Below the pieces are notes generated by a model. That model searched no databases, was not told the DNA's origin, and saw only the letters and a list, made by a program, of their open reading frames with translations. The translations under genes were made by a program, and so were the position numbers. A DNA stretch of 64,000 nt, taken from contig NZ_JASATX010000004.1 of the NCBI RefSeq assembly GCF_029952955.1, positions 124,001-188,000 of the forward strand. The letters are read 5' to 3'. Positions 38,672 to 59,045 of the stretch are shown here, piece by piece; within the stretch, counting starts at the first letter, position 1, and the number at the start of each line of letters is the position of its first letter. Origin of the DNA: Ruicaihuangia caeni. Its GTDB lineage: Bacteria > Actinomycetota > Actinomycetes > Actinomycetales > Microbacteriaceae.

Positions 38672-39922
38672 GTGACGCGGAAGTTGCATGGAAAGCGACT
38701 TGCGTTGGTCAGCCGCATCTTCATGCCTGAGCCGGCTGCGGCGTCATATCGGCTCGCAGCGCTCGCGGTGGCTCTAAGCGACTCGGGAGCTCGCGTTCGC
38801 GTCGTCACGACGCGGGCGCCGCGCGGGTTCGCTGATGATCGGTTCGCCCTGCAGGGCGTTCAGATCGACAGAGCGCCCGTGTTGCGTGATCGCACCGGTT
38901 ACGTGCGGGGCTATCTCCAATACATGAGTTTCGACCTGCCCGCGCTGCTGCGCATCCTGCTCGCGACGCGGCCAGACTTCATCGTGGTCGAGCCACCCCC
39001 GACCACCGGGTGCATCGTGCGCGTCGCAGCGCGGATCAAGCGCACTCGATACGCGTACTTCGCAGCCGACATCTGGTCGGATGCCGTGCTGGCGACGACC
39101 GCGCCGCGCGCTGTGGCGCGTATGGTTCGCGCTCTCGAACGCTGGGCTGTTGAAGGCGCCGACATCGTGCTTTCGACATCGGACGAAAGCACGGAGCGCC
39201 TGAAGGAACTGTTTCCGAGTGTGCGCGTCGTGACCGTAGGGAATGGGATCGACACCGGCGTCTTCGTGCCAGAGGGAGAAGTGCGCAGCGACGGCGACGG
39301 CCCGTACTTCCTCTATGCCGGCACGGCCTCGGAAGTGCATGGAGCTGCCGTCTTCATCAAAGCGTTCCAGCAGGTGCTGGCGCACCGGCCCGAAGCAAGG
39401 TTGGTGTTCATCGGTCACGGTGCCGACTATGACGAGCTTCGCGCGGCGGCGGAGAAGCTGCCTGACGGCGCCGTCCGATTCTATGAGCGTCTCTCTCCCG
39501 AAGAGCTCGGGCCGTGGATCAGGGGTGCCGTCGCGACGCTGGCGAGCGTTCACCCCGACCATTACCACCGGGCGTTCCCCACGAAAATGTATGCTTCAGT
39601 CGCCTGCGGCACCCCCGTCATCTACTCGGGAATCGGACCGGGGCGACAGTTCGCCACCCAGAATCGCCTGGGATGGGGAGTCGACTATGATTCAAGCCGG
39701 GTCGCAGAAGCAATGCGAGCGGCGCTCGAACGCACCGTTGACGCGCAGGAGCGCACCCGCATCGCCGAGTGGGCGCGCCGCCATGTCTCGCTTGACGCAG
39801 TAGGCAGACGCGCTGTCGACGCTGTCGCCGCCCGGATCGCCGACGGAACCGCGCGCAGCGCGCGAGCCTTGCGCAAGCAGGCGGCGGGAGAGGAACCAGG
39901 ATCGCGTGCCGCGCAACGCTGA
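38672..39922 (+). CDS. Glycosyltransferase family 4 (WbuB-like)
   Basis: A 416-residue GT4 enzyme. The N-terminal domain has RLALVSRIFMPEPAAASYRLAALAVAL and FIVVEPPPTTGCIVRVAARI followed by YAYFAADIWSDA; the C-terminal domain has VVTVGNGIDTGVF, FLYAGTASEVHGAAVFIKAF, RLVFIGHGAD and FPTKMYASVACGTPVIYSG. This resembles WbuB-type GlcNAc/FucNAc transferases. GTG start with a GAGAGGGAG ribosome site. First gene of a tight forward run to 43933; the next gene overlaps it. Confidence 0.85.
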   Translation: MTRKLHGKRLALVSRIFMPEPAAASYRLAALAVALSDSGARVRVVTTRAPRGFADDRFALQGVQIDRAPVLRDRTGYVRGYLQYMSFDLPALLRILLATRPDFIVVEPPPTTGCIVRVAARIKRTRYAYFAADIWSDAVLATTAPRAVARMVRALERWAVEGADIVLSTSDESTERLKELFPSVRVVTVGNGIDTGVFVPEGEVRSDGDGPYFLYAGTASEVHGAAVFIKAFQQVLAHRPEARLVFIGHGADYDELRAAAEKLPDGAVRFYERLSPEELGPWIRGAVATLASVHPDHYHRAFPTKMYASVACGTPVIYSGIGPGRQFATQNRLGWGVDYDSSRVAEAMRAALERTVDAQERTRIAEWARRHVSLDAVGRRAVDAVAARIADGTARSARALRKQAAGEEPGSRAAQR

Positions 39923-41105
39923 CCCATCGCAACACCGTGCCGAGATTCTTTGCATCTCTCTATCCCCCATCCGGAGTGACGCTCGGGTGCTTCGCCAGCT
40001 CGAGGCGCTCAAGCAGCACGGCAGCGTGACCACTGTCGGGTTCGGCGCAGCCCCTGACGGAGTTGCACAGCACATCGAAGTGCCTGCCGACTTGAAGACA
40101 TTGCCACAGACGTTCTCGGGAGTTCTCAACCTGGCACTGCGGCGGATGAGAGCCTCGGAACTCGCAGCGCCGGCCGTCCGGTTCGCACTGGCTGCCCTCG
40201 AAGGTCGTCGGTTCGACCTGGTCGTCGCCAATGAGGCGCGCGTGCTGGGTCTTGCGCACGCCGTGTCTCGGGGAGCACCGGTTTGGGCCGATATGCACGA
40301 GTGGGCGCCGGAGGAGAGGACGCAGATCCTCTCCTGGAAACTTCTGGTGGCGCCGTTCATCTCCCACTTGTGCGACCGGTACCTCCCTCGATCGAAAGCC
40401 GTGACGGCCGTGTGCGGGTCGATCGCCGACCTCTACCGCTCCTACTTCGGCGTCGAGACCTCGGTTGTCCGAAATGCTGGCCCCTACCTGGACCTCACGC
40501 CGAGCGAGTCGAATCCTGATCGAGTGAGGCTGGTGCACAGCGGTGCCGCTATCAGGGGTCGCGGGCTCGAGGCGATGATCGAGGTCGTCGAGACCCTCGA
40601 TGCCCGATACACGCTCGATCTCTACCTCATGCCTGGCGGCGATGGTGGCGCATATCTCGACGAACTCCGCAGACGGGCGGAAGGTTCCGCGCGCATCGTG
40701 TTCCACGAGCCCGTCACACCTGCGGAACTGCCTCGGGAGCTGAACAAGTACGACGTGGGCATCTTCTGGATCCCGCCTACCAATACCAACGCGAAGCTCA
40801 CCCTTCCGAATAAGTTCTTCGACTATGTGCAGGCCCGGCTGGCGATCGCAGTGGGGCCGAGCCCCGAGATGGCTGCGCTCGTCCGCGAGTACTCGCTCGG
40901 GGTCGTGAGTTCGAGTTGGGATGTGCGGTCGTATCGTGAGTCGCTGCTCGAACTCGACGGTCCGGGCATCGAGTCCGCGAAGCGCGCTGCCCACGCCGCC
41001 GCGTCGCAACTGAGCTCAGCGACCGATGCGCGGCACATGAGCGAAGTGATCACCGCGCTGCTGGCCGCATCGCGAGAGGCGGCAGGGGTGACGGATGCCG
41101 AGTGA
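39906..41105 (+). CDS. Glycosyltransferase family 4, paralogue of the one at 46585
   Basis: A 399-residue GT4-like protein: ILCISLSPIRSDARVLRQLEAL, VTTVGFGAAPDG, VWADMHEWAPEERTQ, RVRLVHSGAAIRGRGLEAMI, YTLDLYLMPGG and TLPNKFFDYVQARLAIAVGPSPEMA. The last segment, and the overall order of motifs, are shared with the protein at 46585-47733. Start is GTG 39906, overlapping the previous gene by 17 bases. Donor sugar unknown; because a paralogue accompanies the acetamidino genes, both may handle related amino-uronic acids. Confidence 0.83.
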   Translation: MPRNADPSQHRAEILCISLSPIRSDARVLRQLEALKQHGSVTTVGFGAAPDGVAQHIEVPADLKTLPQTFSGVLNLALRRMRASELAAPAVRFALAALEGRRFDLVVANEARVLGLAHAVSRGAPVWADMHEWAPEERTQILSWKLLVAPFISHLCDRYLPRSKAVTAVCGSIADLYRSYFGVETSVVRNAGPYLDLTPSESNPDRVRLVHSGAAIRGRGLEAMIEVVETLDARYTLDLYLMPGGDGGAYLDELRRRAEGSARIVFHEPVTPAELPRELNKYDVGIFWIPPTNTNAKLTLPNKFFDYVQARLAIAVGPSPEMAALVREYSLGVVSSSWDVRSYRESLLELDGPGIESAKRAAHAAASQLSSATDARHMSEVITALLAASREAAGVTDAE

Positions 41106-41778: not shown

Positions 41779-42155
41779 TGTTCATGCAGATCGTCTTTCA
41801 GATCGTCGCCATCATCGTCATCGTCGCCGCCGCGATCTTCACGCTCCGAGGCGGCGGCGCCCGGCATCAGGCGCTCCGTCGCATCTTCATGGTGTTCTTC
41901 ATCGCCGCCGCGGCATCTTCCGTCGCGTTCCCTGGCATCTGGACCTGGATGGCGAAGCTCGTGGGCGTCGGTCGGGGTGCCGACCTGCTGCTGTACATGC
42001 TGGTGCTGACCTTCCTCGGCTTCGTTGCGACCACGTACCGGCGCTTTCGGTCGTTGGAGCGGGATGTGACCGAACTTGCGCGCCATCTCGCCCTTGCGGA
42101 GGCCGGCGCGGGACAGGCCCGCGACAAGCCCGCCGGCGATACGGAGCCGTCCTGA
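41778..42155 (+). CDS. DUF2304 family small membrane protein
   Basis: A 125-residue protein with three helices (IVFQIVAIIVIVAAAIFTL; RRIFMVFFIAAAASSVAFPG; LLLYMLVLTFLGFVATTYR) followed by a coiled RFRSLERDVTELARHLALAEA tail. DUF2304 proteins usually follow DPM1-like GT2 genes and are thought to be membrane partners or flippase helpers. The start overlaps the GT2 stop by one base (TGATG) and the stop overlaps the next ATG in the same manner, so the three genes are translationally coupled. Confidence 0.85.
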   Translation: MFMQIVFQIVAIIVIVAAAIFTLRGGGARHQALRRIFMVFFIAAAASSVAFPGIWTWMAKLVGVGRGADLLLYMLVLTFLGFVATTYRRFRSLERDVTELARHLALAEAGAGQARDKPAGDTEPS

Positions 42156-43933
42156 TGCGGCAGGTCTTCGGCGTCTACAGTGATTTCCTTGGCGTACTGC
42201 CGTCGAACGCGCGGCGTTTCGTCGCACTCTTCTCGGTGCTGCAAGCGGCGCTCGCTCTCCTCGACGCGCTCGCACTCGGACTGCTTGCGCTCACGATCGC
42301 GCCGCTCAGCACGGGTCAGCCGGTGGTTCTCCCGCTCATCGGTGAGCTCGACGATGCCGGCGCGCTCGTCGCGGTCGCCGCGGTGTGCGCGCTGATCATC
42401 GCGAAGGGCCTGCTGTCGGTGCTGCTGCTCCGCTGGGCGACTCAGAGATTCGCCCGGTATGAGCTCGAGATCGGCACCCGCTTGTTCCGCGCATTCATGG
42501 CTGCGCCTTGGCTCGTGCGCCTGCGGAAGAACTCATCCGATATCGTCCGCTTGGCGGACTCGAGCGTCAACGCGGCCGTGATGAGTTTTCTGCTCCCTGG
42601 GTCGACCATCCTCGGTGAGATCGCGAGCCTTGTCGCAATCCTCTTGGTGCTGGTCATCGCGCAGCCTGCCATCGCCCTGGTGACGCTGTTGTACCTCGGG
42701 GCGATCGGAGCTGTCCTGTACTTCTGGATCGCCCGGCATGCGCGAACCGCGGGCCGTGTGAATCTTCAATTCACCCTGCAGTCCGGGCGGTTCATCACCG
42801 AAATGGTCGGTGCAATGAAGGAGATCACCCTCAGGAACAAGAATGGCGAGGTCGTCGACGTCGTGCGTCGAAGCCGCGAGCACAGTACGAGGGCCCGCGC
42901 CAACGTGTACTTCTTGGGGCAGGTGCCTCGTTTCGTGCTCGAGTCGGCCATTGTGGGGGGCTTCGTGCTGGTGGGCGCGGTTGGATTCACGCTTGGCGGT
43001 GCCGGCGACGCGATCACTGCGGTAGCCCTGTTCGGTCTCGCGGGATTCAGGATGGCACCCTCGATCATCAGGCTGCAGTCCGTGCTGTCTCAGATGATCT
43101 CCGCCGTGCCTCATCCGGTCGCCGTGACCGATGAGATCCGCACCGCCGAGGAGGCATCAGCGGGGCGCGAGGCAGCGGAAGGAGCGCCGTTCCCGACGAA
43201 CCCGAGGAAACTTGAATTGTCGGAGGTCGTATTCAAGTACTCCTCCGATGCGCGCCCAGCAGTCGATTCCGTGAGCCTGACGATACCGTTCGGAACCACT
43301 GCGGCGGTCGTCGGTCAATCGGGCTCGGGCAAGTCCACGCTGGTAGACCTCATTCTTGGATTGATCGACCCGACCGGTGGAACAATCACTGTGGACGGCG
43401 CGTCGACGGCGTCGCTGACTCAATCGTGGCGCGAGCGGGTGGCCTATGTGCCGCAAGAGGTAGCGCTGTTCGATGGCACCGTTGCAGAGAACGTCGCGCT
43501 CAGTTGGTCGGGGGAGTTCGATCGCGACCGTGTTCGCGCCGCGCTACGACGTGCGCAACTGCTCGACACCGTGGAGAGCCGGGAAGGTGGAATCGATGCG
43601 CGGGTCGGAGAGCGCGGGCTCGCGCTTTCGGGCGGCCAGCGCCAGCGTCTCGGAATCGCTCGCGCACTCTACGCCGAACCGCTTGTGCTCGTACTCGATG
43701 AGGCGACGAGTGCGTTGGACACCAAAACAGAGGCAGCGGTCATGGAATCGATCCGCGACCTGCGCGGCGACGTCACCCTGGTGATCGTGGCGCACCGACT
43801 CGCAACGGTGAAGGACGCTGATCAGGTGTTCTACCTGAAAGATGGTCGGGTTGCTGGTTCGGGTCGGTTCTCAGAGGTCGTCGCGACGGTGCCGGAGTTT
43901 GCGCAACAGGCAGCGCTCGCGGGCCTTGTCTGA
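42155..43933 (+). CDS. ABC transporter, fused permease-ATPase (MsbA/PglK-like flippase candidate)
   Basis: A 592-residue exporter half-transporter: about six helices in residues 1-310, then a nucleotide-binding domain with Walker A VGQSGSGKST, the Q-loop VAYVPQEVALFDGTVAENV, signature LALSGGQRQRLGIARAL, Walker B LVLVLDEATSALD and the His switch IVAHRLATV. Homodimers of this type flip lipid-linked oligosaccharides (PglK) or export lipids and peptides. A position at the end of a glycosyltransferase operon supports a lipid-linked sugar substrate. It gives the locus a second export route beside Wzm/Wzt. Confidence 0.87.
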   Translation: MRQVFGVYSDFLGVLPSNARRFVALFSVLQAALALLDALALGLLALTIAPLSTGQPVVLPLIGELDDAGALVAVAAVCALIIAKGLLSVLLLRWATQRFARYELEIGTRLFRAFMAAPWLVRLRKNSSDIVRLADSSVNAAVMSFLLPGSTILGEIASLVAILLVLVIAQPAIALVTLLYLGAIGAVLYFWIARHARTAGRVNLQFTLQSGRFITEMVGAMKEITLRNKNGEVVDVVRRSREHSTRARANVYFLGQVPRFVLESAIVGGFVLVGAVGFTLGGAGDAITAVALFGLAGFRMAPSIIRLQSVLSQMISAVPHPVAVTDEIRTAEEASAGREAAEGAPFPTNPRKLELSEVVFKYSSDARPAVDSVSLTIPFGTTAAVVGQSGSGKSTLVDLILGLIDPTGGTITVDGASTASLTQSWRERVAYVPQEVALFDGTVAENVALSWSGEFDRDRVRAALRRAQLLDTVESREGGIDARVGERGLALSGGQRQRLGIARALYAEPLVLVLDEATSALDTKTEAAVMESIRDLRGDVTLVIVAHRLATVKDADQVFYLKDGRVAGSGRFSEVVATVPEFAQQAALAGLV

Positions 43934-44048: not shown

Positions 44049-45194
44049 ATGACTGCTGCCCGAGAGTACCGCATGTGCACGCGGACGGTCATGGACACGA
44101 CCGACCCCGACATCACCTTCGACTCCGAAGGGGTCTCGTCGCACGCGCTCCGATACGATCGCGAGTTCGCAGCCATCGTCGACGCTGCTACCAAGGGCGA
44201 ACGCCTCGGTGAACTGCAGAAGATCGTCGCGGAGATCAAGAAGGCCGGTGAGGGCAAGCCCTACGACTGCATTGTCGGGGTGAGCGGCGGCGTCGACAGC
44301 ACATACCTCATCCTTCAGGCCGTCAAGCTCGGCCTCAGACCCCTCGCCGTGCACTTCGACAGCGGCTGGAACTCCGAGCTCGCCGTCGGCAACATCAAGA
44401 ACATCGTCGATCGCCTCGGCCTCGACCTGTACACCGATGTGGTCGATTGGCGCGAAATGCGCGACCTTCAGCTCTCCTTCTTCAAGGCGTCGGTGCCGAA
44501 TTGCGATATCCCGACCGACCACGCGTTCTCGCGCGTGGCATTCCAGCAGGCTGAGAAGTACGGGATCAAGTACATCCTCGGAGGCAGCAACCTCGCGAGC
44601 GAGTCGGTACTGCCGCAGGCGTGGGGTTACAACGCATCCGATGCCAGGCACCTGAAAGCCATCCAGCGAAAGTTTGGCAGCGTGAAGCTCAAGACGTATC
44701 CGACGCTCGGGCTGTTCAAGCGACACATCTGGTATGAAGCGATTCGCGGCATCAAGACCGTCAAGATGCTGAACTACCTTCCGTACAATTATGTCGAGGC
44801 CAAGGCGCAGATCACTGAGGAGCTCGGGTGGCGCGACTACGGCGGCAAGCACTACGAGTCGGTCTTCACCCGTTACTTCCAGGGCTACTACCTTCCGATG
44901 AAGTTCGGATTCGACAAGCGGCTCGCCCACTACTCCTCGCTCATACTGTCGGGTCAGATGACCCGCGAAGAGGCGCTCGAGCTGCTCAAGCAGCCCAACT
45001 ATCCGGAGGCGCTTCGGAAGCAGGATCACGAGTTCATCGCCAAGAAGCTCGGTGTCTCCACCTCAGAGCTCGAGGAGATATACGCCCGCCCGATCGCTGA
45101 TCACATGTCCTATCCGAACTCCAAGTGGGCGTGGGATCAGACCCTGAAGCTCGCGCGCCTCGCGGCGAGACTCGTCAAGAGGTTCCGTCGTTGA
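44049..45194 (+). CDS. N-acetyl sugar amidotransferase (WbpG/PseA family)
   Basis: A 381-residue PP-loop ATPase: CIVGVSGGVDSTYLI is the ATP pyrophosphatase loop, and YILGGSNLASESVLP, KMLNYLPYNYVEAKAQIT and GWRDYGGKHYESVFTRYFQGYYLP are hallmarks of the family. It uses ATP and ammonia to turn an N-acetyl group into an acetamidino group on a nucleotide sugar, with ammonia from the HisH2/HisF2 pair encoded next. The family usually begins with CxxC and a second GVCxxC pair; here the text is MCTRTVMD and EGVSSHA, so three of four Cys are lost. A strong GGAGG ribosome site precedes ATG 44049. Base composition is lower in G+C than neighbours. Confidence 0.9.
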   Translation: MTAAREYRMCTRTVMDTTDPDITFDSEGVSSHALRYDREFAAIVDAATKGERLGELQKIVAEIKKAGEGKPYDCIVGVSGGVDSTYLILQAVKLGLRPLAVHFDSGWNSELAVGNIKNIVDRLGLDLYTDVVDWREMRDLQLSFFKASVPNCDIPTDHAFSRVAFQQAEKYGIKYILGGSNLASESVLPQAWGYNASDARHLKAIQRKFGSVKLKTYPTLGLFKRHIWYEAIRGIKTVKMLNYLPYNYVEAKAQITEELGWRDYGGKHYESVFTRYFQGYYLPMKFGFDKRLAHYSSLILSGQMTREEALELLKQPNYPEALRKQDHEFIAKKLGVSTSELEEIYARPIADHMSYPNSKWAWDQTLKLARLAARLVKRFRR

Positions 45195-45796
45195 CGGTCT
45201 CCATAGTCGACTACGGGCTGGGGAATCTCGGCTCCGTGTTCAACATGCTGAGGCGCATCGGCGAGGACGCACGCATCGTCTCCGAGCCTTCGGAACTAGC
45301 CGCGAGCGAGCGACTACTGCTCCCGGGCGTGGGCGCTTTCGATGTGGGCGTCGATCGACTGGAACGCACCGGGTTCGCAGATGGAGTACGCGAGTTCGCA
45401 GCGTCCGGCAAACCCTTGCTGGGCATCTGCCTCGGGATGCAACTGCTCTTCGAACGGAGTGAGGAGGGTGGCGCCCGCGGGCTCGGGCTCATGGCCGGCG
45501 GCAGCCGCCGGTTCGCCGCTGGTCCGTCGCTGCGGATCCCTCACATGGGCTGGAACTCGATCATTCCAGTCAGAGAAGATCCGCTGCTCAAGGGAGTCGA
45601 GGACGACAACCGTTTCTACTTCGTTCACAGCTACCACGTGGTGCCGGACGACCCGGCCCACGTGCTGGCAGAGAGCGACTACGGTGGTCGCTTCGTCGCA
45701 ATGGTCCGCCACGATAACGTCGCGGGAGCGCAGTTCCACCCGGAGAAGAGCCATGCATTCGGCATGACGGTCCTCAGAAATTTCGCCCAGCAATGA
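45191..45796 (+). CDS. hisH2: Glutamine amidotransferase, HisH2-type (acetamidino pathway)
   Basis: Class I glutaminase of 201 residues: SIVDYGLGNLGSVFNML, PGVGAFDVG, LLGICLGMQLLFERSEEGG with the nucleophile Cys, IPHMGWNSI, and GAQFHPEKSH with the catalytic His and Glu. All three catalytic residues are present, so glutamine hydrolysis should work. Context, not sequence alone, assigns it to the sugar amidotransferase (as in wbpG-hisH2-hisF2) rather than to histidine synthesis; no other his gene is near. The start is TTG 45191 overlapping the previous stop; it ends overlapping the hisF2 start. Confidence 0.88.
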   Translation: MTVSIVDYGLGNLGSVFNMLRRIGEDARIVSEPSELAASERLLLPGVGAFDVGVDRLERTGFADGVREFAASGKPLLGICLGMQLLFERSEEGGARGLGLMAGGSRRFAAGPSLRIPHMGWNSIIPVREDPLLKGVEDDNRFYFVHSYHVVPDDPAHVLAESDYGGRFVAMVRHDNVAGAQFHPEKSHAFGMTVLRNFAQQ

Positions 45797-46557
45797 GCGT
45801 GTTCCCACGAGTGATCCCTGTGCTCCTCGTCAGCGAGGGCTACCTGGTCAAGCCGGTCAAGTTCTCCGGCGAGCGTTACATCGGCGACCCGATCAACGCC
45901 GTCCGCATCTTCAACGAGAAGCAGGTCGACGAGCTCGTCGTGCTCGACATCGACGCCGCAGTGAAGGGCACGGATCCCGATCACAGGCTGATCGAGGAGA
46001 TCGCCAGCGAGGCGTTCATGCCTGTGGCGTACGGGGGAGGTGTGCGCACATCGGAGCAAGCAAGGCGCATCACTGGCATCGGGATCGAGAAGATCGTGCT
46101 GAACACCGCTGCGTTCGAGACGCCCGCGCTCGTCACCGAGATCGCTGAGCTGCTCGGGTCGTCGAGCACTGTAGTCAGCATCGACGCCAAACGCCGTATC
46201 ACCGGCGGGTACGAGACCTACAGCCGGCGCGCATCGAGAAAGACGGGGCTGAGCCCAGTCGACGCCGCGAAGCGGGCTGTCGAGCTCGGGGCCGGCGAAC
46301 TGATCGTGTCTTCGATCGATCGCGAGAGCACGTTCAGCGGTTATGACCTCAAGCTCGTGGCGAGCGTCGCCGAGGCTGTGGAGGTTCCGGTCATCGCCCT
46401 GGGCGGCGCCTCGGGCCTCAATGACTTCGCGGCGGCGCTGCAGGCGGGCGCGTCCGCCGTCGCTGCTGGAAGCCTGTTCGTGTTGAACGGGAAGCACCGA
46501 GCGGTGCTCATCACGTATCCGGGCCAGGCCGAGATCCGGTCGCTCCGGCCGAGCTGA
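45793..46557 (+). CDS. hisF2: HisF2/AglZ-type ammonia-channel protein of acetamidino modification
   Basis: A 254-residue TIM barrel: PVLLVSEGYLVKPVKFSGE, GDPINAVRIFNEKQVDELVVLDID, VAYGGGVRTSEQARR, VSIDAKRRITGGYETYSRR and GGASGLNDFAAALQAGASAV. True HisF has an Asp in the first strand (IPCLDV); here it reads IPVLLV, so the first catalytic Asp is replaced by Leu, while the second (SIDAKR) is kept. This fits the acetamidino-modification subgroup, which is thought to pass ammonia to the amidotransferase rather than make imidazole glycerol phosphate. Four-base overlap with hisH2. Confidence 0.9.
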   Translation: MSVFPRVIPVLLVSEGYLVKPVKFSGERYIGDPINAVRIFNEKQVDELVVLDIDAAVKGTDPDHRLIEEIASEAFMPVAYGGGVRTSEQARRITGIGIEKIVLNTAAFETPALVTEIAELLGSSSTVVSIDAKRRITGGYETYSRRASRKTGLSPVDAAKRAVELGAGELIVSSIDRESTFSGYDLKLVASVAEAVEVPVIALGGASGLNDFAAALQAGASAVAAGSLFVLNGKHRAVLITYPGQAEIRSLRPS

Positions 46558-46584
46558 ATCGCACATCTCCGATAAGGAAGACGC

Positions 46585-47733
46585 ATGACTGACCCCTCCC
46601 GGCCGAGAGTCCTTGTACTGACGTTCACGCCGATCGCGCGAGAGCCCCGAGCCCTCAAGCAGATCCGCCGCTTCGCGAAGGACTACGACGTCACGACAGC
46701 GGGATTCGGCGAGGCTCCCGACCCCGACCTTCCTCACATCGAGTTGGAGTCGTCGCCCAAGGTCCGAGGATTGCAGTCCGTGCGAGGCGCGTATCTGCTG
46801 ATGCTGCTGCTGCGGCTCTACCGGCTGCTGTACTGGACGAACCCTCGGAACACCAGTGCATTCGAGAGGCTCCGCGGAATCGACTGGGATGTGATCGTCG
46901 CGCACGATGTGCAGACCGTGCCGCTCGCAACTCGTCTCGCGCCCAACCGGGGTGTCATCGTGGATCTGCACGAGTATGCGCCGCGACAGAATGAGCACTC
47001 AGTCGCGTGGCGCCTCCTGATCGGCCCCTACTTCCGCTGGATCCTGCGCAAGCATGTGTCTCATGCTGCGTCGGTCACGACAGTCAGCCAGGGCATTGTG
47101 GAAGAGTACCGGCGCGAGTTCGGACTCGAGACTGAACTGGTGGCGAACGCGACTCCGTTCCACGATTTCTCCGTTGGCGAGGTCGGCAGTCCCATACGAC
47201 TCGTGCACAGCGGAATCCCGGCGCCGGCGCGGAAGCTCGAGGTGATGATCGACGCGGTGAAGGAGACATCGACGGACGTCATCCTCGATCTCTACCTCAT
47301 CAAGGACGGATCCGAGTACTACGAGCAGTTGAAGCAGCGTGCGGCGGGCAGTCACCGCATCCGGTTCGTGGAGCCCGTGCCGTATTCCGAGCTGCTGCCG
47401 ACACTCAATACGTACGACGTCGGGCTGAGCGTGATCGCCCCCACAACGTTCAACCTGGCGTGGTGCCTGCCGAACAAGTTCTTCGACTTCATTCAGGCGC
47501 GCCTGGGTGTGATCATCGGACCGTCGCCGGAAATGATGCGTTTCGTCGATGAGCACGACATCGGCGCCGTCACCCGCGACTTCTCGGCCGACGCGCTGCG
47601 CGAAGTGCTCGATTCCCTCACACCCGAGAAGGTGTCCACGTGGAAGAACGCGTCGCACCATCATGCTCGCGAGCTCTCAAGCGAGAAGCAGGTCGAGATC
47701 TGGGCGGCTGAACTTGCGCGCGTCCTCGGGTGA
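46585..47733 (+). CDS. Glycosyltransferase family 4, paralogue of the one at 39906
   Basis: A 382-residue GT4-like enzyme: VLVLTFTPIAREPRALKQIRRF, VTTAGFGEAPD, VIVDLHEYAPRQNE, IRLVHSGIPAPARKLEVMI, ILDLYLIKDGSEYYEQL, FVEPVPYSELL and LPNKFFDFIQARLGVIIGPSPEMM. Motif order and spacing match the protein at 39906-41105 throughout, so the two arose by duplication. AAGGAAG at 46574-46580 is its ribosome site. It is last in the amidotransferase-HisH2-HisF2 unit and may transfer the modified uronic acid. Confidence 0.85.
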   Translation: MTDPSRPRVLVLTFTPIAREPRALKQIRRFAKDYDVTTAGFGEAPDPDLPHIELESSPKVRGLQSVRGAYLLMLLLRLYRLLYWTNPRNTSAFERLRGIDWDVIVAHDVQTVPLATRLAPNRGVIVDLHEYAPRQNEHSVAWRLLIGPYFRWILRKHVSHAASVTTVSQGIVEEYRREFGLETELVANATPFHDFSVGEVGSPIRLVHSGIPAPARKLEVMIDAVKETSTDVILDLYLIKDGSEYYEQLKQRAAGSHRIRFVEPVPYSELLPTLNTYDVGLSVIAPTTFNLAWCLPNKFFDFIQARLGVIIGPSPEMMRFVDEHDIGAVTRDFSADALREVLDSLTPEKVSTWKNASHHHARELSSEKQVEIWAAELARVLG

Positions 47734-47764
47734 GCCCACGAAGCACGCCCCCTCGAGCGGGGTG

Positions 47765-47818
47765 ACCGCCTCAGCGTCTCGCGACGTCGAGTCTTCCGTA
47801 GGGTTCAGACGAGGCGGT
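47765..47818. terminator. Inverted repeat between convergent units
   Basis: ACCGCCTC at 47765-47772 pairs with GAGGCGGT at 47811-47818, and after a three-base bulge GTCT pairs with AGAC. The element spans the end of the reverse WbpB-like gene and the 71-base gap after the GT4 gene. The loop is long (about 27 bases), so a terminator role is only possible. Confidence 0.35.
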
Positions 47819-48788
47819 GCGTGAGACCGTCGGCAATCAGCTTCTCGGCTATGTTCACAACCTCTGCGCCTTCCGCGAGGGTGACGATGCGAGATGTGTC
47901 GCCGGTTGCCACGGCGTCGCGGAAGGCTTCGTGCTCGGACCGAAGAGGCTCCTTCTTGTTCAGGGCATACCGTATGACGTCACCTTCGCTGACACCCCGG
48001 AAGGCCGAGATTCCGGGCCAGCTGAGCTGCTCCACGCCGTTGGCGTAATAGGTCAGATCCGCAGTGAGCGTGTCTGCGACAAGAGAGCCTTTCTCACCGG
48101 TGACGATGGTGGTGCGCTCCTTGAACGGAGTCAGCCAGTTGACGGTGTGCGACGCGATGGTGCCGTCGCTCAGAGTTCCGATCGCGATGACCATGTCTTC
48201 GTGGGGACGCCCGCTGCGGTGCGTCGTGCGAGCGTTGACCGACACATATGACTGTTGGCTCACCCACGCGGTGAGGTCGATGTCGTGCGTGGCGAGGTCC
48301 TTGATGACTCCGACATCGGCGATGCGGCCAGGGAAAGGACCCTGCCGCCGAGTGGCGATCTGGTAGATCTCGCCGAGCACGCCGTCCTGCAGGCGGCTTC
48401 GCATCGACTGGAGGGCCGGGTTGAACCGCTCGATGTGCCCTACCCCGCCAATCAGCCCCGCGGCGTTGAAGAGTTCCACGAGCTCTCGCGAAGCTTCTGC
48501 TGTGTGCGCCACCGGCTTCTCGATGAGCGCGTGCACGCCGCGTTCGGCGAGCATGCGCCCCATATCCAGGTGGTACACGGTCGGCGTTGCGATGACGCAG
48601 TAGTCCACCGTGTCGAGAAAAGCATCCAGGTCTTTGGTGACGGGTTTGCCCTCGACCGTCGGATCGACACCGTCTGCCGGGTCGTACACGCCGACGAAGT
48701 CGACGCCCTCCAGCGAGTTGAGCACTCGGCAGTGGTTGCGGCCCATCATGCCCAGCCCGAGCACTCCGGCCTTGAGCGCAGCGGTCAC
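47805..48788 (-). CDS. Gfo/Idh/MocA oxidoreductase, WbpB-like (UDP-GlcNAcA 3-dehydrogenase)
   Basis: A 327-residue protein: GVLGLGMMGRNHCRVLNSL is the Rossmann motif, ALIEKPVAHTAEASREL holds the EKP catalytic Lys, and IERFNPALQSMRSRL and DVGVIKDLATHDIDLTAW match the C-terminal oxidoreductase domain. In the Pseudomonas pathway WbpB oxidises C-3 of UDP-GlcNAc-uronate to a 3-keto sugar, with the hydride recycled by 2-oxoglutarate, and hands it to the WbpE aminotransferase. The gene order here (wbpD-like, wbpE-like, wbpB-like) supports this. Four-base overlap with the aminotransferase gene. Confidence 0.86.
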   Translation of the reverse strand: MTAALKAGVLGLGMMGRNHCRVLNSLEGVDFVGVYDPADGVDPTVEGKPVTKDLDAFLDTVDYCVIATPTVYHLDMGRMLAERGVHALIEKPVAHTAEASRELVELFNAAGLIGGVGHIERFNPALQSMRSRLQDGVLGEIYQIATRRQGPFPGRIADVGVIKDLATHDIDLTAWVSQQSYVSVNARTTHRSGRPHEDMVIAIGTLSDGTIASHTVNWLTPFKERTTIVTGEKGSLVADTLTADLTYYANGVEQLSWPGISAFRGVSEGDVIRYALNKKEPLRSEHEAFRDAVATGDTSRIVTLAEGAEVVNIAEKLIADGLTHRLV

Positions 48789-49861
48789 GCGCCCGCTCCT
48801 GCCACCGCGTTCACGGCCTCCACGACGGCATCGCGCTCGGCGTCTGTCATGGAGGGATACACAGGGAGCGACAGTACCTGCGCCGCAGCCTCCTCGGTCA
48901 CCGGCAGGTCAGCCTTCTCGGCGAAAGAGGGCAGTCGGTGGATCGGCGTCGGGTAGTAGACGCCAGAGCCGACGCCCCGCTTGGCCAGCTCCTCGGCGAA
49001 ACGGTCTCTGTCGTGGTCCACTACGCGGATCGTGTACTGGTGGTAGACGTGCACCGCGCCTTCGGCCGTGGGCGGAACGATCACACCCTCGAGATGCTGA
49101 TCGAAGTACGCCGCGTTCGCCTGCCGACGTGCAGTCCAGCCGGCGAGCTTCTTCAACTGCTCTCTCCCGATGGCTGCGTGGATGTCGGTCATCCGCGTAT
49201 TGAAGCCGACCACTTCATTGGCGTAGCGGCGCTCCATGCCCTGGTTGCGGAGCACTCGGGCAGCGCGCGCCAGCTCGCTGGAACCGGTCGTGATCATTCC
49301 GCCTTCGCCCGAGGTCATGTTCTTCGTCGGGTAGAACGAGAATGAGGCGGCCAGGCCCCAAGCGCCCACCGGCATTCCGTTGACCGAAGCGGCATGCGCC
49401 TGCGCGGCGTCTTCGTAGAGTTGCAGGCCGTGCTTGTCAGCGATCTCTGCCAGAGTCACCAGGTCGGCAGGGTGGCCGTAGAGATGCACCGGCATCACGG
49501 CTTTGGTGCGGCGCGTGATGGCGGCTTCGACAGCTGCAGGATCGATCGAGAAGTGTTTCGGCTCGATGTCGACGAACACCGGCTTCGCGCCTGCGAGCGC
49601 CACGGCGTTCGCGGTCGCAGCGAAGCTGAACGAGGGAACGATCACCTCATCGCCTGCGCCCACGCCACCAGCGAGGAACGCCATGTGAAGTGCCGACGTG
49701 CCGGAGTTGACGGCCACTGATTCGCGTCCGGCGACGATCTCGGCGAACTCGGTCTCGAACGCGGCGACTTCGGGGCCTTGAGCCAGCATGCCGGAGCGCA
49801 TGACGCGATCGACCGCGGCCCGCTCCTCCTCGCCGATCTCGGGCCGTGCTGCTGGAATCAT
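48785..49861 (-). CDS. DegT/DnrJ/EryC1 sugar aminotransferase, WbpE-like
   Basis: PLP enzyme of 358 residues: PAARPEIGEEERAAVDRVM, NSGTSALHMAFLAGGVG, DEVIVPSFSFAATANAV, YEDAAQAHAASVNG and FSFYPTKNMTSGEGGMI, where the Lys binds PLP. It transfers an amino group to the 3-keto uronate made by the WbpB-like partner, forming UDP-GlcNAc(3NH2)A. It shares one base with the stop of the acetyltransferase gene upstream and overlaps the WbpB-like gene downstream, which makes a compact three-gene operon. Confidence 0.9.
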   Translation of the reverse strand: MIPAARPEIGEEERAAVDRVMRSGMLAQGPEVAAFETEFAEIVAGRESVAVNSGTSALHMAFLAGGVGAGDEVIVPSFSFAATANAVALAGAKPVFVDIEPKHFSIDPAAVEAAITRRTKAVMPVHLYGHPADLVTLAEIADKHGLQLYEDAAQAHAASVNGMPVGAWGLAASFSFYPTKNMTSGEGGMITTGSSELARAARVLRNQGMERRYANEVVGFNTRMTDIHAAIGREQLKKLAGWTARRQANAAYFDQHLEGVIVPPTAEGAVHVYHQYTIRVVDHDRDRFAEELAKRGVGSGVYYPTPIHRLPSFAEKADLPVTEEAAAQVLSLPVYPSMTDAERDAVVEAVNAVAGAGA

Positions 49862-50463
49862 CAGTTCTCCACTTCGATGAGCGTGTTCTCGTCTGTCTGG
49901 CGGTACCGATCACCGCTGACCGGACAGATCCAGTCGATGTCGCCGTCACGTCGGAGGGGCTCTCCCGTCTTGCCCACCCAGCCGACGCGCCTGGCCGGGC
50001 TGCCGACCACGAGAGCGAAATCTGGAACGTCTTTCACGACGACGGATCCCGACCCGACGAGCGCCCACCGTCCGATGGTCACCGGCGCGACGCACGTGGC
50101 ACTCGCGCCGATCGACGCTCCTTCGCGGATGTGAACTCCGACCGGGTGCCAGTCATCGGCAGATTTCGGGGAGCCGTCGGCGTTGATTGCGCGCGGGAAG
50201 TGGTCGTTAGTCAGTACGACGGCGGGCCCGATGAAGACTCCGTGCTCGAGGCGAGCGGGCTCGTACACGAGCGCATAGTTCTGAATCTTGCAGTTGTCGC
50301 CGACATCGACTCCTGGCCCGATGTAGGCACCGCGGCCCACGATGCAGTTCTCGCCGAGGGACGCGTTCTCACGGACCTGTGCGTAGTGCCAGACACGCGA
50401 CGATGCGGCGATGCGGGCCGAAGCGGCGACGTCAGCGGTCGCATGGATATTGCTCGAGGACAA
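49861..50463 (-). CDS. Left-handed beta-helix N-acetyltransferase, WbpD-like
   Basis: A 200-residue hexapeptide-repeat enzyme: IHATADVAASARIAASSRVW, VRENASLGENCIVGRGAYIG, GVDVGDNCKIQNYALVYEPA, then FIGPAVVLTNDHFPRA and GASIGASATCVAPVTIGRWALVG. The family (WbpD/WlbB) acetylates the 3-amino group of UDP-GlcNAc3N-uronate with acetyl-CoA. The start is TTG 50463, preceded by GGAG at a distance of seven bases; no ATG or GTG fits the conserved N-terminus. The C-terminal segment DIDWICPVSGDRYR is a short extension. First gene of the operon. Confidence 0.87.
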   Translation of the reverse strand: MSSSNIHATADVAASARIAASSRVWHYAQVRENASLGENCIVGRGAYIGPGVDVGDNCKIQNYALVYEPARLEHGVFIGPAVVLTNDHFPRAINADGSPKSADDWHPVGVHIREGASIGASATCVAPVTIGRWALVGSGSVVVKDVPDFALVVGSPARRVGWVGKTGEPLRRDGDIDWICPVSGDRYRQTDENTLIEVEN

Positions 50464-50484
50464 GCAGGCTCCTAGTCGCGTTAA

Positions 50485-50503
50485 TGAGGGATCAGCGCCC
50501 TCA
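50485..50503 (-). promoter_or_regulatory. Dyad at the start of the wbpD-like operon
   Basis: TGAGGG (50485-50490) and CCCTCA (50498-50503) form a 6-bp dyad directly downstream of the TAGGAT box, around the expected transcription start. It could be an operator or a leader hairpin. Confidence 0.35.
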
Positions 50504-50509
50504 ATCCTA
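50504..50509 (-). promoter_or_regulatory. Probable -10 box of the wbpD-like operon
   Basis: TAGGAT on the reverse strand, 40 bases before TTG 50463. The leader of about 33 bases carries a TGAGGG/CCCTCA dyad and the GGAG ribosome site. Confidence 0.45.
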
Positions 50510-50581
50510 CGACCGGACCGATTGGGCCGGCTTTGATCCGGAATCGCCCGATCTAGCAGAGGGATTCGAAGGGAAATCACG

Positions 50582-50587
50582 TACCCT
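50582..50587 (+). promoter_or_regulatory. Probable -10 box of the LGFP-protein gene
   Basis: TACCCT, 25 bases before ATG 50613. Transcription would start near 50594-50595, leaving a short leader with the GGGGGG ribosome site. A GTG at 50595 could alternatively serve as a leaderless start adding six residues. Confidence 0.5.
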
Positions 50588-50612
50588 GATTTTCGTGTTC
50601 GGGGGGCTGTTG

Positions 50613-53189
50613 ATGAAGCGGGGACGACGGAAAGCACAACGAGTGCCCATTGCGCGGTCGCTCGCCGCGATCACAGCTGCGCTCGCACTCGGCGTGGGGT
50701 TGGTCGTCGGTGCGCCGGGCGCGCATGACTCGGCCGAAGCCGCGAACGCTGCTGACTTCGACGCCGGGTACATCATCAGCGACGCGAACTTCTACGACGA
50801 CGATGCCATGACGCAGGCTGAGATCCAGGCGTTTCTCGAGGCGAACACGGGTACCTGCCGCAACAGCAATTGTCTGCCAGTGCTCCGGGTCGACACTTTC
50901 GACCGCGCGGCGAACAACCCCTGCAAGGCGTATCGCGGCGCTCCGGGCGAGAGCGCAGCAGCGGTGATCTTCAAAGTGCAGCAGGCATGCAATATCAGTG
51001 CCAAGGTGATCCTCGTCACCCTGCACAAAGAGCAAGGACTCATCGGAAAGACAGCGCCGACCGACCTTGAGCTCCGCAAAGCGATGGGCTATGGCTGCCC
51101 AGACACCGCCTCGTGTGATTCGCGGTACTACGGGTTCTACAACCAGGTGTACAACGCCGCCTGGCAGTTCGGCTGGTATCGCATCGGCTACAGCACACCC
51201 GGCAGCAGTTTCTACGGCAAGTACCCGCTGGGTCAGATCAGCCAGATCCTCTATCACCCGTACAACAATTGCGGCACGTCTGGCGTTCGAGTTCAGAACT
51301 TCGCCACGGCAGCTCTGTACCACTACACGCCGTACCAACCGAATGCAGCGGCGCTCGCCAACCTCTACGGGGTGGGTGACACCTGTTCGTCCTACGGCAA
51401 TCGGAACTTCTGGCGCATGTACACGGACTGGTTCGGAAGCCCAGTCGCGGTGGACGGTACAGACGCCGTAGCCAAGGCGTTCGCTGACGCCGGCGGACCA
51501 GGCGGAGTACTCGGCGCGGTCACGGTCCCGGAGAACTGCGACCTCGGCGACTCAACCTGCTTTCAACGACATGTGAACGGCACCATCTATTGGACGGTCG
51601 AGTCCGGGGCTTGGCCGGTCGTCGGCGACTATGTGTCGATCTATGAGGCTGCCGGCGGAGTGTCTGGCCCCATGGGGCCCCCGATTGCAGCAGCAGTCAC
51701 GGTGGCTTCGACGCCCAATGGTCCGGGAGCGGGTCAGCAGTTCAAGTACGGCACCATCTACTCGTCCGCCGCGGGCGCCTACGCCGTGTGGGGCGGCATA
51801 CGGACCAAGTGGTGGAGCCTCAACGGAAATCAGGGAGAACTGGGATGGCCGACCAGTTCGCGGGCCTGCCTTGGCGCGCACTGTTGGCAGAACTTCCAAG
51901 CCGGGATCGCCTTCGAATCGCAAGCGGTGGTGAAGGGCGGATATCTCTCGTTGTACTCCTCCCTCGGAGGACCTCGCGGCTCGCTCGGTCCTGCGACCAG
52001 CGACTACGTTGACGTGCCTGACTCTGGAAACGGCGTCGGCGGCGGCCAGCAGTTCGTCAACGGCACGGTGTACAGCAGCGCTGCCGGAACGTATCCGGTG
52101 CTTGAGCCCGTGCGGACTCACTACTGGCGTGCGGGGAGCAACCAGGGCGTATTCGGCTGGCCGACTGCGGCTCAGCAGTGTGTCAACGGTCGTTGCTGGC
52201 AGCCGTTCGCCGGCGGGATCGTCGTGTCGGACGGGATCACGCTGAACAAGGCGTACTCCGACGTGTTCATCGCCACAGGTTCCGCCTCGGGGACCCTCGG
52301 GATGCCGACGAGTGCCTTTGTCGAGGTGCCGTCGACGCCGAACGGGCCTGGTTCGGGCCAGCAGTTCGAGCGCGGGACGATCTACTCGAGTGCTGCGGGC
52401 ACGTTCCCTGTGTGGGGTGTGGTTCGCGCCGAGTGGTGGCGAACCGGTGGGAACATGGGCGCGCTGGGCTGGCCTGTGGCGAACCCGGTGTGCTCCGGCG
52501 GTGTGTGCAGTCAGGAGTTCCAGAACGGGGTGGTGGTGCAGACCTCAGCCACCACGGCGGTCGTCACGCTGAGGGTTCATAGCAGCTACAGCGCTACGCA
52601 CTCGGCCTTCAAAGCCGAGCTCGGGATGCCGACGAGTGCCTTTGTCGAGGTGCCGTCGACGCCGAACGGGCCTGGTTCGGGCCAGCAGTTCGAGCGCGGG
52701 ACGATCTACTCGAGTGCTGCGGGCACGTTCCCTGTGTGGGGTGTGGTTCGCGCCGAGTGGTGGCGAACCGGTGGGAACATGGGTGGGCTGGGCTGGCCTG
52801 TGGCGAACCCGGTGTGCTCCGGCGGTGTGTGCAGTCAGGAGTTCCAGAACGGGGTGGTGACGCAGACCTCAGCCACCACGGCGGTCGTCGCTCCGCCCGT
52901 CCATCCTGACTACGCCGCGACCTATGCAGCGCACTCAGCCGAACTCGGTGCTGCAACCAGCGCATTCGTCCGCGTGGAAACGCCGAACGGCCCAGGGGGA
53001 GGGCAGCAGTTCCAGCGCGGCACCATCTATTCCAGCGCAGCCGGCACCTACGCGGTGTGGGGGGAAGTGCGCTCGTACTGGTGGAGTGCCGGTGGAAACA
53101 TGGGCTCCTTCGGGTGGCCGACCGCGGATCCCTCCTGCTCCGGCGGTCTCTGCACTCAGTCATTCCAGGGTGGAACAATCACCAGGTGA
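50613..53189 (+). CDS. Secreted LGFP-repeat cell-wall protein
   Basis: An 858-residue exported protein. A basic start (MKRGRRKAQRVP) and hydrophobic core (AAITAALALGVGLVVGAPGA) form a signal peptide. Residues about 45-285 are a Cys-containing domain with SDANFYDDDAMTQAEIQAFL and KVILVTLHKEQGLI, which I cannot place firmly; KEQGL resembles the Glu region of lysozyme-like domains. The remainder is LGFP repeats of about 54 residues: PNGPGSGQQFERGTIYSSAA, then WGVVRAEWWRTGGNMGALGWP. Such repeats bind the actinobacterial cell wall. Two 90-residue blocks are nearly identical at DNA level. The stop overlaps the next start. Confidence 0.87.
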   Translation: MKRGRRKAQRVPIARSLAAITAALALGVGLVVGAPGAHDSAEAANAADFDAGYIISDANFYDDDAMTQAEIQAFLEANTGTCRNSNCLPVLRVDTFDRAANNPCKAYRGAPGESAAAVIFKVQQACNISAKVILVTLHKEQGLIGKTAPTDLELRKAMGYGCPDTASCDSRYYGFYNQVYNAAWQFGWYRIGYSTPGSSFYGKYPLGQISQILYHPYNNCGTSGVRVQNFATAALYHYTPYQPNAAALANLYGVGDTCSSYGNRNFWRMYTDWFGSPVAVDGTDAVAKAFADAGGPGGVLGAVTVPENCDLGDSTCFQRHVNGTIYWTVESGAWPVVGDYVSIYEAAGGVSGPMGPPIAAAVTVASTPNGPGAGQQFKYGTIYSSAAGAYAVWGGIRTKWWSLNGNQGELGWPTSSRACLGAHCWQNFQAGIAFESQAVVKGGYLSLYSSLGGPRGSLGPATSDYVDVPDSGNGVGGGQQFVNGTVYSSAAGTYPVLEPVRTHYWRAGSNQGVFGWPTAAQQCVNGRCWQPFAGGIVVSDGITLNKAYSDVFIATGSASGTLGMPTSAFVEVPSTPNGPGSGQQFERGTIYSSAAGTFPVWGVVRAEWWRTGGNMGALGWPVANPVCSGGVCSQEFQNGVVVQTSATTAVVTLRVHSSYSATHSAFKAELGMPTSAFVEVPSTPNGPGSGQQFERGTIYSSAAGTFPVWGVVRAEWWRTGGNMGGLGWPVANPVCSGGVCSQEFQNGVVTQTSATTAVVAPPVHPDYAATYAAHSAELGAATSAFVRVETPNGPGGGQQFQRGTIYSSAAGTYAVWGEVRSYWWSAGGNMGSFGWPTADPSCSGGLCTQSFQGGTITR
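52296..52889 (+). repeat. 324-bp tandem duplication within the LGFP gene
   Basis: The 270 bases 52296-52565 recur at 52620-52889. By eye I find four mismatches (GCGCG against GTGGG, and GTGGTG against GTGACG), so identity is about 98%. The unit including the spacer is 324 bases, or 108 residues, equal to two LGFP repeats, and the frame is kept. Confidence 0.92.
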
Positions 53190-55256: not shown

Positions 55257-56222
55257 GTGAGAGTCCTCGTCACCGGCGGTGCCGGCTATATCGGTGCGCA
55301 TGTCGTGAGGCTTCTCGCGCAGCGCGGCGACACGCCGATCGTCGTCGACGATCTCAGCACAGGCGACCGCGACCGCGTAGGAGGCGCTGAGTTTCACGAA
55401 CTCGACCTCACTGCGAGCGATGCGAATCAGCGACTCGAAGCGCTCCTGCGCGATGCTCGCGTCGACGGGGTCGTGCACTTCGCAGCGAAGAAGCAGGTGG
55501 GCGAGTCGGTCGAGCGGCCACTGTGGTACTTCGAGCAGAACGTGGGCGGCCTGGTCAACCTGCTGCGAGCTGTTGAGACGGTAGGAGTCGAGCGCTTCGT
55601 GTTCTCGTCGTCGGCCTCGGTGTACGGCCACGCCGACGACGCCCTGGTGTCTGAAGCCTCGCCGACCCGGCCGGTCAATCCCTACGGTCAGACGAAGCTC
55701 GCGGGGGAGTGGCTGGTCGGCGATGTCGCCGCTGCGGGCGCCCTTCGTGGCGCGAGCCTGCGCTACTTCAACGTCGCCGGCGCAGGGTGGCCTGATCTCG
55801 GCGACACGGCGGTGCTGAACCTCGTTCCGATGGTGATCGAGCGCATCGAGGCGGGCGAGTCGCCGCGCATCTTCGGCGACGACTATCCGACAGCCGATGG
55901 CACGTGCGTGCGCGACTACGTGCATGTGCTCGACCTCGCTGAGGCCCACCTCGCGGTGCTCGACGCGCTTGCCGATGGTCCGGCCCGGCATGAGGTGTTC
56001 AACATCGGCACGGGGCTCGGCTCATCTGTGCGCGTCATCGTCGATCAGGTGTTGCGCGAAGCCGGGTCGACCCTCGAGCCCGAGGTGCTGGCGCGTCGCG
56101 CAGGCGATCCGCCCGCACTGGTGGCGGACGCGTCGCGCATCGAGCAGCGCATCGGCTGGCGGGCCCAGCGCGGCGTCGCAGAGATCGTCGCCTCGGCGTG
56201 GTCGGCGCACCGCTACCGTTGA
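55257..56222 (+). CDS. galE: UDP-glucose 4-epimerase
   Basis: Extended SDR epimerase of 321 residues: RVLVTGGAGYIGAHVVRLL, HFAAKKQVGESVERP, FVFSSSASVYG, NPYGQTKLAGEW (Tyr-Lys pair) and RYFNVAGAGWPDLGD, plus TCVRDYVHVLDLAEAHL. This is the GalE type that interconverts UDP-Glc and UDP-Gal (possibly also the HexNAc forms) for glycan synthesis. Leaderless GTG start. The family is usually a little longer, about 330-340 residues, but all key motifs are present. Confidence 0.92.
   Translation: MRVLVTGGAGYIGAHVVRLLAQRGDTPIVVDDLSTGDRDRVGGAEFHELDLTASDANQRLEALLRDARVDGVVHFAAKKQVGESVERPLWYFEQNVGGLVNLLRAVETVGVERFVFSSSASVYGHADDALVSEASPTRPVNPYGQTKLAGEWLVGDVAAAGALRGASLRYFNVAGAGWPDLGDTAVLNLVPMVIERIEAGESPRIFGDDYPTADGTCVRDYVHVLDLAEAHLAVLDALADGPARHEVFNIGTGLGSSVRVIVDQVLREAGSTLEPEVLARRAGDPPALVADASRIEQRIGWRAQRGVAEIVASAWSAHRYR
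56214..56219 (+). promoter_or_regulatory. -10 box of GT2 gene, leaderless arrangement
   Basis: TACCGT followed by TGAAGCC and GTG 56227. As with galE, the box lies within the last codons of the preceding gene. Confidence 0.55.
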
Positions 56223-58946: not shown

Positions 58947-58953
58947 CGGCACC

Positions 58954-58959: not shown

Positions 58960-59045
58960 CCTGTGAGTGCGCCTGCCGACCGTGCGCCGAGCGGTGTGCC
59001 CGGCGCGCAGAAGGCTGGGGCGATCGAGCGGCATCACGGCCGCCA

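Follow-up and report, generated by a model that had tools for sequence, protein, structure and literature searches.

The actinobacterium Ruicaihuangia caeni carries a gene cassette that probably makes a diamino-uronic acid in nucleotide-activated form, UDP-2,3-diacetamido-2,3-dideoxy-glucuronic acid (UDP-GlcNAc3NAcA), amidinates it by means of a module consisting of WbuX along with HisH2 and HisF2, and supplies the result to a surface glycan. This cassette is found within a 64-kb stretch of DNA, here termed the ‘window’, which is positions 124,001-188,000 of contig NZ_JASATX010000004.1 (assembly GCF_029952955.1; G000:C5:124001-188000), with the assembly as a whole amounting to 2.67 Mb in 10 contigs and being 98.7% complete. 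Directly observed are the gene content, its conservation in other Microbacteriaceae, the co-occurrence of core enzymes across the phylum, and the absence of a 2-epimerase. New here is the joining, as one Microbacteriaceae cassette, of an acetamidino module to a core of the Streptomyces Utr type, with enzyme functions in all cases predicted.

The pathway, as read from sequence with regard to its reactions, the position amidinated, the polymer, and that polymer's anchor, would run as follows. UDP-N-acetylglucosamine (UDP-GlcNAc) would be oxidised both at C6, by the dehydrogenase encoded at 37234-38523, and at C3, by a Gfo/Idh/MocA-type protein (‘Gfo’), in either order. C3 would then be aminated by a DegT-family protein and N-acetylated by a hexapeptide enzyme, giving UDP-GlcNAc3NAcA, and, as there is no 2-epimerase, that gluco form would also be the final one. 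HisH2 would free ammonia from glutamine and HisF2 would pass this ammonia to WbuX, which, with ATP, would convert one acetamido group to an acetamidino group, i.e., giving the 3-acetamidino form (GlcNAc3NAmA) or instead its 2-isomer. Bearing an acetamidino group as well as a carboxylate, the residue would be zwitterionic. Family 4 glycosyltransferases (GT4) and an ATP-binding cassette (ABC) protein of the MsbA/PglK type would assemble and export the surface oligosaccharide or polymer, and the conservation of these proteins suggests assembly on a lipid followed by flipping.

From a broader perspective, Microbacteriaceae could possess a glycopolymer, located in the wall or at the surface, that is built from zwitterionic 2-acetamido-3-acetamidino-2,3-dideoxy-glucuronic acid. 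To our knowledge no actinobacterium is known to have this sugar. It would be made via a WbuX module shared with Proteobacteria that has been joined to a native Utr-type core, with gain or loss of a 2-epimerase toggling between gluco and manno serotypes, and with those genomes that carry two WbuX genes (Cryobacterium and an uncultured species) amidinating two residues. This larger picture is somewhat less likely than not.

Genes of the cassette and their enzyme families

The center of the cassette consists of two facing units, WbuX-HisH2-HisF2 on the plus strand (44049-46557) and an acetyltransferase-aminotransferase-Gfo operon on the minus strand (50463-47805). These genes and the dehydrogenase at 37234-38523 had been called in an initial annotation of the window, and they are real, both the genes and their coordinates having held up. 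The accompanying suggestion of diamino-uronic acid chemistry combined with an acetamidino module is likewise supported, i.e., by family assignments, synteny, and co-occurrence. Equating the set with the Wbp enzymes of Pseudomonas does not hold, as the 3-dehydrogenase is not WbpB and the 6-dehydrogenase falls outside of the WbpA/TviB subfamily.

The acetamidino module is the more readily recognized portion. WbuX (44049-45194, plus strand), an N-acetyl sugar amidotransferase of the WbuX/WbpG type by model, alignment, motifs, and tree, scores 283 bits against TIGR03573, thereby passing the cut-off of 203.2, and its PP-loop, SGGVDS, is intact in both the alignment and the motif listing. The gene for HisH2 (45191-45796, plus strand), the glutaminase predicted to be the source of ammonia, begins with TTG and overlaps the WbuX stop, and its product scores 229 bits against TIGR01855 (cut-off 105.4). 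HisF2 (45793-46557, plus strand), the predicted ammonia-channelling partner, passes NF038364, ‘AglZ/HisF2 family acetamidino modification protein’, at 330.2 bits (cut-off 310). As a canonical HisF is present elsewhere in the genome (C1:815193; 346.8 bits), the HisF2 of the cassette probably serves as a dedicated copy. Among the 32 WbuX rows of a tree, the Microbacteriaceae-type group forms a single clade (support 100/99), and the next larger clade (96/92) consists of that group plus a proteobacterial one, with Bordetella trematum, Achromobacter, Thauera, and Rhizobium among its members. The module is, by this phylogeny, probably shared between phyla by transfer.

The core enzymes are less like their Pseudomonas counterparts. 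The dehydrogenase at 37234-38523 (minus strand), the predicted function of which is oxidation at C6 to give the uronic acid, matches PF03721, PF00984, and PF03720 and has a GGHC motif. It had been described as WbpA-like, but it scores only 98 bits against the TviB UDP-GlcNAc 6-dehydrogenase model versus 559 for the WbpA-type enzyme of a Polaromonas WbuX locus (L021). Six full-length Microbacteriaceae-type copies are 73-84% identical to it, whereas for three proteobacterial enzymes in the alignment the figure is 32-33%, and by these comparisons it belongs to a UtrD-like clade of its own, here termed ‘UGD1’, outside of the WbpA/TviB subfamily.

The Gfo protein (47805-48788, minus strand) is the predicted UDP-GlcNAc(A) 3-dehydrogenase. 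Its best NCBIfam model is NF040723, an archaeal UDP-GlcNAc 3-dehydrogenase (4e-55, 187.5 bits), and its best solved relative is PDB 7bvj (86 bits), which we take to be GnnA. Its score with the solved WbpB 3o9z is no more than 24.8 bits, and the other WbpB structure, 3oa2, is not found among the best 60 of its 66 PDB matches. The WbpB of the same Polaromonas locus, by comparison, matches 3oa2 at 560 bits and no NCBIfam model at 1e-10. On these matches the Gfo protein is UtrB-like, resembling UDP-GlcNAc 3-dehydrogenases while falling outside of the WbpB family. A structure prediction for it from five sequences had a mean predicted local distance difference test score (pLDDT) of 53 and was used for no search.

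The two remaining core enzymes are the DegT/DnrJ/EryC1/StrS aminotransferase (48785-49861, minus strand; pyridoxal phosphate-dependent; PF01041, 423 bits), for which 3-amination is predicted, and the hexapeptide N-acetyltransferase (49861-50463, minus strand; PF00132), for which 3-N-acetylation is predicted. The latter scores 154 bits against PDB 3mqg, presumably WlbB of Bordetella, with the next best at 88, and according to those scores is of the WbpD/WlbB kind; its gene starts with TTG, with an in-frame GTG found farther upstream at 50637. (Structures 3q2i and 3q2k, similarly, we take to be WlbA.) The aminotransferase scores 245 bits against WbpE (3nu7) and 298 against its best match, 7b0d. 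Of an operon that had been labelled WbpD-, WbpE-, and WbpB-like, the WbpD-type member thus is retained and the WbpB-like one is not, while the aminotransferase is a DegT protein to which WbpE is not nearest. For Gfo, UGD1, and HisF2, the nearest equivalog models are archaeal or AglZ-named.

Distribution of the cassette and of its parts

A WbuX profile scan of named genomes yielded 79 loci, these coming from the 80 best among 517 confirmed stretches, and actinobacterial WbuX beyond them may therefore exist. Seven of the loci are of the Microbacteriaceae type: a Leucobacter metagenome-assembled genome (MAG), Microbacterium sp. CBA3102, Cryobacterium sp. BB307, a Mesorhizobium-labelled contig, an uncultured Microbacteriaceae, Homoserinimonas sp. 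OAct 916, and Mycetocola miduiensis. UGD1 is found within 10 kb of WbuX in all seven (72-84% identity), with the Homoserinimonas copy a 130-aa fragment at the edge of its locus, and the Gfo clade is present in six of the seven genomes. In Microbacterium sp. CBA3102 (L012), 11 genes match the window in both order and orientation, the differences being that a DUF2304 glycosyltransferase is located elsewhere and that the two units are parted by 1.5 kb without a match. In Mycetocola miduiensis (L019) there is instead a single run of seven co-directional genes, WbuX-HisH2-HisF2-UGD1-Hexapep-DegT-Gfo, spanning 6.8 kb (10001-16806). As the same arrangement recurs in other species, that of the window is not a matter of chance.

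Kept with the cassette as well are glycosyltransferase and transporter genes, all on the plus strand. These are two GT4 genes identified by Pfam (38672-39922, seen in six of the seven loci by best-hit label, and 39906-41105, with 46-61% identity in six of seven), the final gene of the plus-strand unit, which also is a GT4 by Pfam (46585-47733; five of seven by best-hit label), and the ABC transporter (42155-43933; 46-56% identity in five of seven). This transporter matches the NCBIfam models for MsbA and PglK, both below cut-off, and is a possible flippase of lipid-linked oligosaccharides.

Two sets of these loci have peculiarities of their own. The contig binned as Mesorhizobium (L014, JAHBYX010000019.1) groups with Microbacteriaceae in the WbuX tree and is probably misplaced; its genome-wide epimerase result has been left out of the evidence. 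Two WbuX copies are found both in Cryobacterium sp. BB307 (L013, 10001-11125 and 14239-15375) and in the uncultured Microbacteriaceae (L015, 1488-2558 and 10001-11080), in each case alongside a single HisH2/HisF2 pair within the stretch and with the GT4 type doubled. Paired WbuX copies might, judging from gene number, mean two amidinated residues.

Among 396 genomes drawn from across the phylum, profile searches with Gfo and UGD1 each return a clade: that of Gfo scores at least 279 bits and is found in 20 genomes (the next genome scoring 183), while that of UGD1 scores at least 469 and is found in 16 (the next at 246). The two are found together in 15 genomes (p 4.5e-22 versus independence, a statistic that ignores the kinship of genomes), and in every one of these the pair shares a contig, with a separation of 15 bp to 16 kb. 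In the remaining UGD1 genome (G617), a weaker Gfo relative, of 147.5 bits, is located some 4 kb away from UGD1.

A number of observations weigh against the idea of a dedicated pathway leading to an amidinated GlcNAc3NAcA. Within 10 kb of WbuX in the Microbacteriaceae-type loci, Gfo is found in only four of seven (two more have it farther off on the same contig, and the MAG of L014 has none), DegT in five, the hexapeptide enzyme in four, and HisH2/HisF2 in six, L017 being without the latter pair. No WbuX or HisF2 match is seen in 20 core stretches from 19 genomes other than that of the window (L140-L159, including the short stretches L149, L157, and L158, at 7, 11.5, and 13.8 kb, respectively), and of the eight phylum genomes with WbuX above cut-off, only that of the window has a core clade, whether Gfo or UGD1. 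WbuX as such therefore is not tied to the core, and the module appears to have been added to an actinobacterial core that is older. The WbuX of the window, in addition, lacks the N-terminal cysteine pairs, with CxxC/CxxC reduced to CTRT/SSHA within its first 40 residues. That loss is confined to one clade of eight rows (support 97/95), i.e., it is one loss on the tree, one in which the PP-loop stays, and the cysteines are retained by the WbuX of Homoserinimonas and Mycetocola. The nearest 3-dehydrogenase model for Gfo is for UDP-GlcNAc, and the match is under that model's cut-off of 450. In two Streptomyces plasmid loci, a hexapeptide-like domain accompanies Gfo and DegT while UGD1 has no match over 21 kb, implying that a Gfo/DegT/hexapeptide set can serve other products. 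Lastly, in the available part of the Streptomyces source (PMC13274773), the roles of utrA, utrB, utrD, utrJ, and utrH are predicted ones, with utrC and utrG being the deletions that are named.

With regard to those plasmids, Streptomyces plasmid Gfo relatives are 52-56% identical to Gfo, and two of seven such matches were examined. In both (L160, 7377-11014; L161, 7366-11005), DegT and Gfo lie beside a ‘phosphopantetheine-binding protein’ in which a hexapeptide acetyltransferase-like domain (42%) is present, further genes being those for a dioxygenase, an FAD oxidoreductase, and a NUDIX hydrolase. This possibly is a cluster for a small molecule, one with a 3-amino sugar that is N-acylated from a carrier.

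Target of amidination and configuration of the sugar

The alternative that best survives is that the diamino-uronic acid stays diacetylated while WbuX acts instead on another acetamido sugar present in that polymer, such as N-acetylglucosamine (GlcNAc) or N-acetylgalactosamine (GalNAc). The uncoupling of WbuX from the core clades across the phylum is in keeping with this, as is the occurrence of both DegT and hexapeptide matches in only 29 of the 79 WbuX loci (25 of the 49 that are at least 20 kb in length). It is nevertheless unlikely given that Mycetocola has module and all four core enzymes in its one co-directional run and that UGD1 accompanies WbuX in every Microbacteriaceae-type locus. 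Two further targets were considered and rejected: nonulosonic acids (pseudaminic or legionaminic acid), as no match to the NeuB synthase (PF03102) is found in the genome, and N-acetylfucosamine (FucNAc), the known route to which requires an Epimerase_2 enzyme.

That enzyme family (PF02350, to which WbpI and WecB belong) has no match in the whole assembly, with the same search, as a control, positive in 11 of 14 known genomes. The absence of a WbpI epimerase that had been noted for the window thus extends to the genome. It also has precedent, as of the 15 genomes with both core clades, five, including that of the window, have no Epimerase_2 anywhere, while each of the other ten has one within 12 kb of its core, the nearest at 24 bp. 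Since relatives that possess this epimerase keep it beside the core in ten of ten cases, absence here looks like natural polymorphism rather than an assembly gap. Among WbuX relatives, for which the epimerase check took in 34 of the 79 loci, Epimerase_2 is found at three of the seven Microbacteriaceae-type loci (L011, L015, and L017), and for L013 it is in the genome but away from the locus. Homoserinimonas sp. OAct 916 is thus epimerase-positive, whereas for Mycetocola miduiensis and Microbacterium sp. CBA3102, both of which have the cassette, the check returned no Epimerase_2.

Streptomyces supplies the chemistry by which this polymorphism may be read, as determined by nuclear magnetic resonance (NMR) and as described in the available part of the source. 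S. griseus, with the epimerase gene utrH, has the manno form (ManNAc3NAcA) with GlcNAc3NAcA at the reducing end, whereas S. antibioticus, the cluster of which is without utrE, utrF, and utrH, has a GlcNAc3NAcA homopolymer (PMC13274773). Lack of the 2-epimerase gene, that is, goes with a gluco product. For the window the expectation consequently is GlcNAc3NAcA along with its acetamidino form, and this gluco configuration, which also had been the initial annotation's prediction, is well supported.

A manno product, as in Pseudomonas, could still come about were a 2-epimerase of another fold present, the search having covered PF02350 only and the genome being 98.7% rather than fully complete. This is quite improbable in light of both the consistent placement of Epimerase_2 at the core in those relatives that have it and the gluco polymer of S. 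antibioticus. Less probable still is a galacto form, made by a nearby GalE or by another short-chain dehydrogenase/reductase (SDR). For this there is a parallel in the Bordetella SDRs wbmF, wbmG, and wbmH, which are thought, according to the available part of the source, to yield 2,3-diacetamido-L-galacturonic acid (PMC2279256). There is also a GalE, i.e., a UDP-glucose 4-epimerase, in the window (55257-56222, plus strand), and a related one (58%) less than 10 kb from the core in L142, a genome that belongs to the same family. The window's GalE, however, is an ordinary one (TIGR01179, 328.9 bits, cut-off 262.3) and lies outside of the conserved cassette, with a match of any kind in only three of seven WbuX loci, at best 40% identical; it possibly supplies a co-sugar.

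Comparably improbable is that the product is neutral UDP-GlcNAc3NAc, with UGD1 making a separate uronic acid. The UDP-GlcNAc specificity of the best 3-dehydrogenase model and the UGD1-lacking plasmid loci both would fit with such a product. UGD1 and Gfo clades co-occur, though, and do so in close proximity, and the Streptomyces product, in the part of its description available, is a uronic acid (PMC13274773).

Elsewhere within the window are rhamnose-pathway family genes, Wzy-like proteins, and an LCP-family protein (19429-20808). No wall-teichoic acid family (TagF/TarIJ) is seen among the 50 window open reading frames (ORFs) given to Pfam, with no genome-wide search made. A large ORF with six LGFP repeat matches (50379-53189) adjoins the N-acetyltransferase gene and may encode a wall-binding protein. 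Two adjacent ORFs are of the Wzy_C (O-antigen-ligase) type (57651-58955 and 59046-60428), the second overlapping another ORF at 58957-60255. A second UDP-sugar dehydrogenase (15944-17239) is of the UDP-glucose dehydrogenase type, with TuaD and AglM as best equivalog models, both below cut-off.

Comparison with known systems

Diamino-uronic acids are already known in actinobacteria. The initial annotation, which knew of no described actinobacterial polymer of this kind, thus does not hold in this respect for the diacetamido uronic acid, given that of Streptomyces as reported in the available part of the source (PMC13274773). For the acetamidino part, no actinobacterial precedent was found in the literature searched, subscription journals being mostly outside of it.

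The Streptomyces Utr (teichuronic acid) locus is among the closest of the known systems. Ribosomal proteins L21 and L27 serve as anchors for its placement in the available part of the source (PMC13274773). Likely orthologues of the window's core are found in four genomes of a single genus (Gfo 55-58%, DegT 59-62%, UGD1 65-71%, and, in three, hexapeptide 60-61%). In three of the four, L27 is about 9-19 kb from the Gfo gene, in flanks beyond the first 20-kb stretches; the fourth (G497) has no L27 within about 60 kb. L145 has genes for aminotransferase, oxidase, UDP-sugar dehydrogenase, and 2-epimerase in that order, with a gap following the oxidase, and this fits utrA, B, C, D, and H if letters follow gene order. 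From this order and the L27 anchor we infer that the genus is Streptomyces. The Gfo and UGD1 of the window likely are orthologues of Utr enzymes, a comparison made via these L27-anchored loci rather than with Utr proteins themselves. In both, the core comprises an aminotransferase, an oxidase, a UDP-sugar dehydrogenase, and an N-acetyltransferase, the 2-epimerase is optional, and the product without it is of the gluco form, by prediction in the case of the window. Distinguishing the window are the added WbuX-HisH2-HisF2 module and glycosyltransferases, for which matches in those core stretches are only 26-29%.

Through this likeness a predicted actinobacterial sugar is connected with a relative proved by NMR, namely the Streptomyces receptor of umbrella toxins. 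The set of enzymes probably responsible is corrected as well, and a natural series, with and without, becomes available for both the 2-epimerase and the amidination module. The gain or loss of just one or three genes would alter the charge or the configuration of a surface receptor, which might serve as a simple means of escape from phages or from the toxins of competitors.

Three other known systems are also close. The P. aeruginosa Wbp system, presumably paired with WbpG/HisH2/HisF2, resembles that of the window in its overall chemistry and in its type of acetamidino module. Its five-enzyme WbpABEDI pathway is described in the available part of the source (PMC10622841), and from it the window differs in having another Gfo/Idh subfamily, another UGD subfamily, and no WbpI. 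The WbuX loci of Bordetella trematum and Achromobacter (L018 and L016) have a WbuX that is 63% identical and of the sister clade, but also have a WbpI-type epimerase and a hexapeptide enzyme only 41-43% alike. In the N-glycan of Methanococcus maripaludis (MMP0350/MMP1081), GlcNAc3NAcA and an acetamidino sugar are found within one glycan, differing from the proposed product in that the glycan is N-linked to protein and in that the acetamidino sugar is a manno acid carrying threonine, again as given in the available part of the source (PMC2952790).

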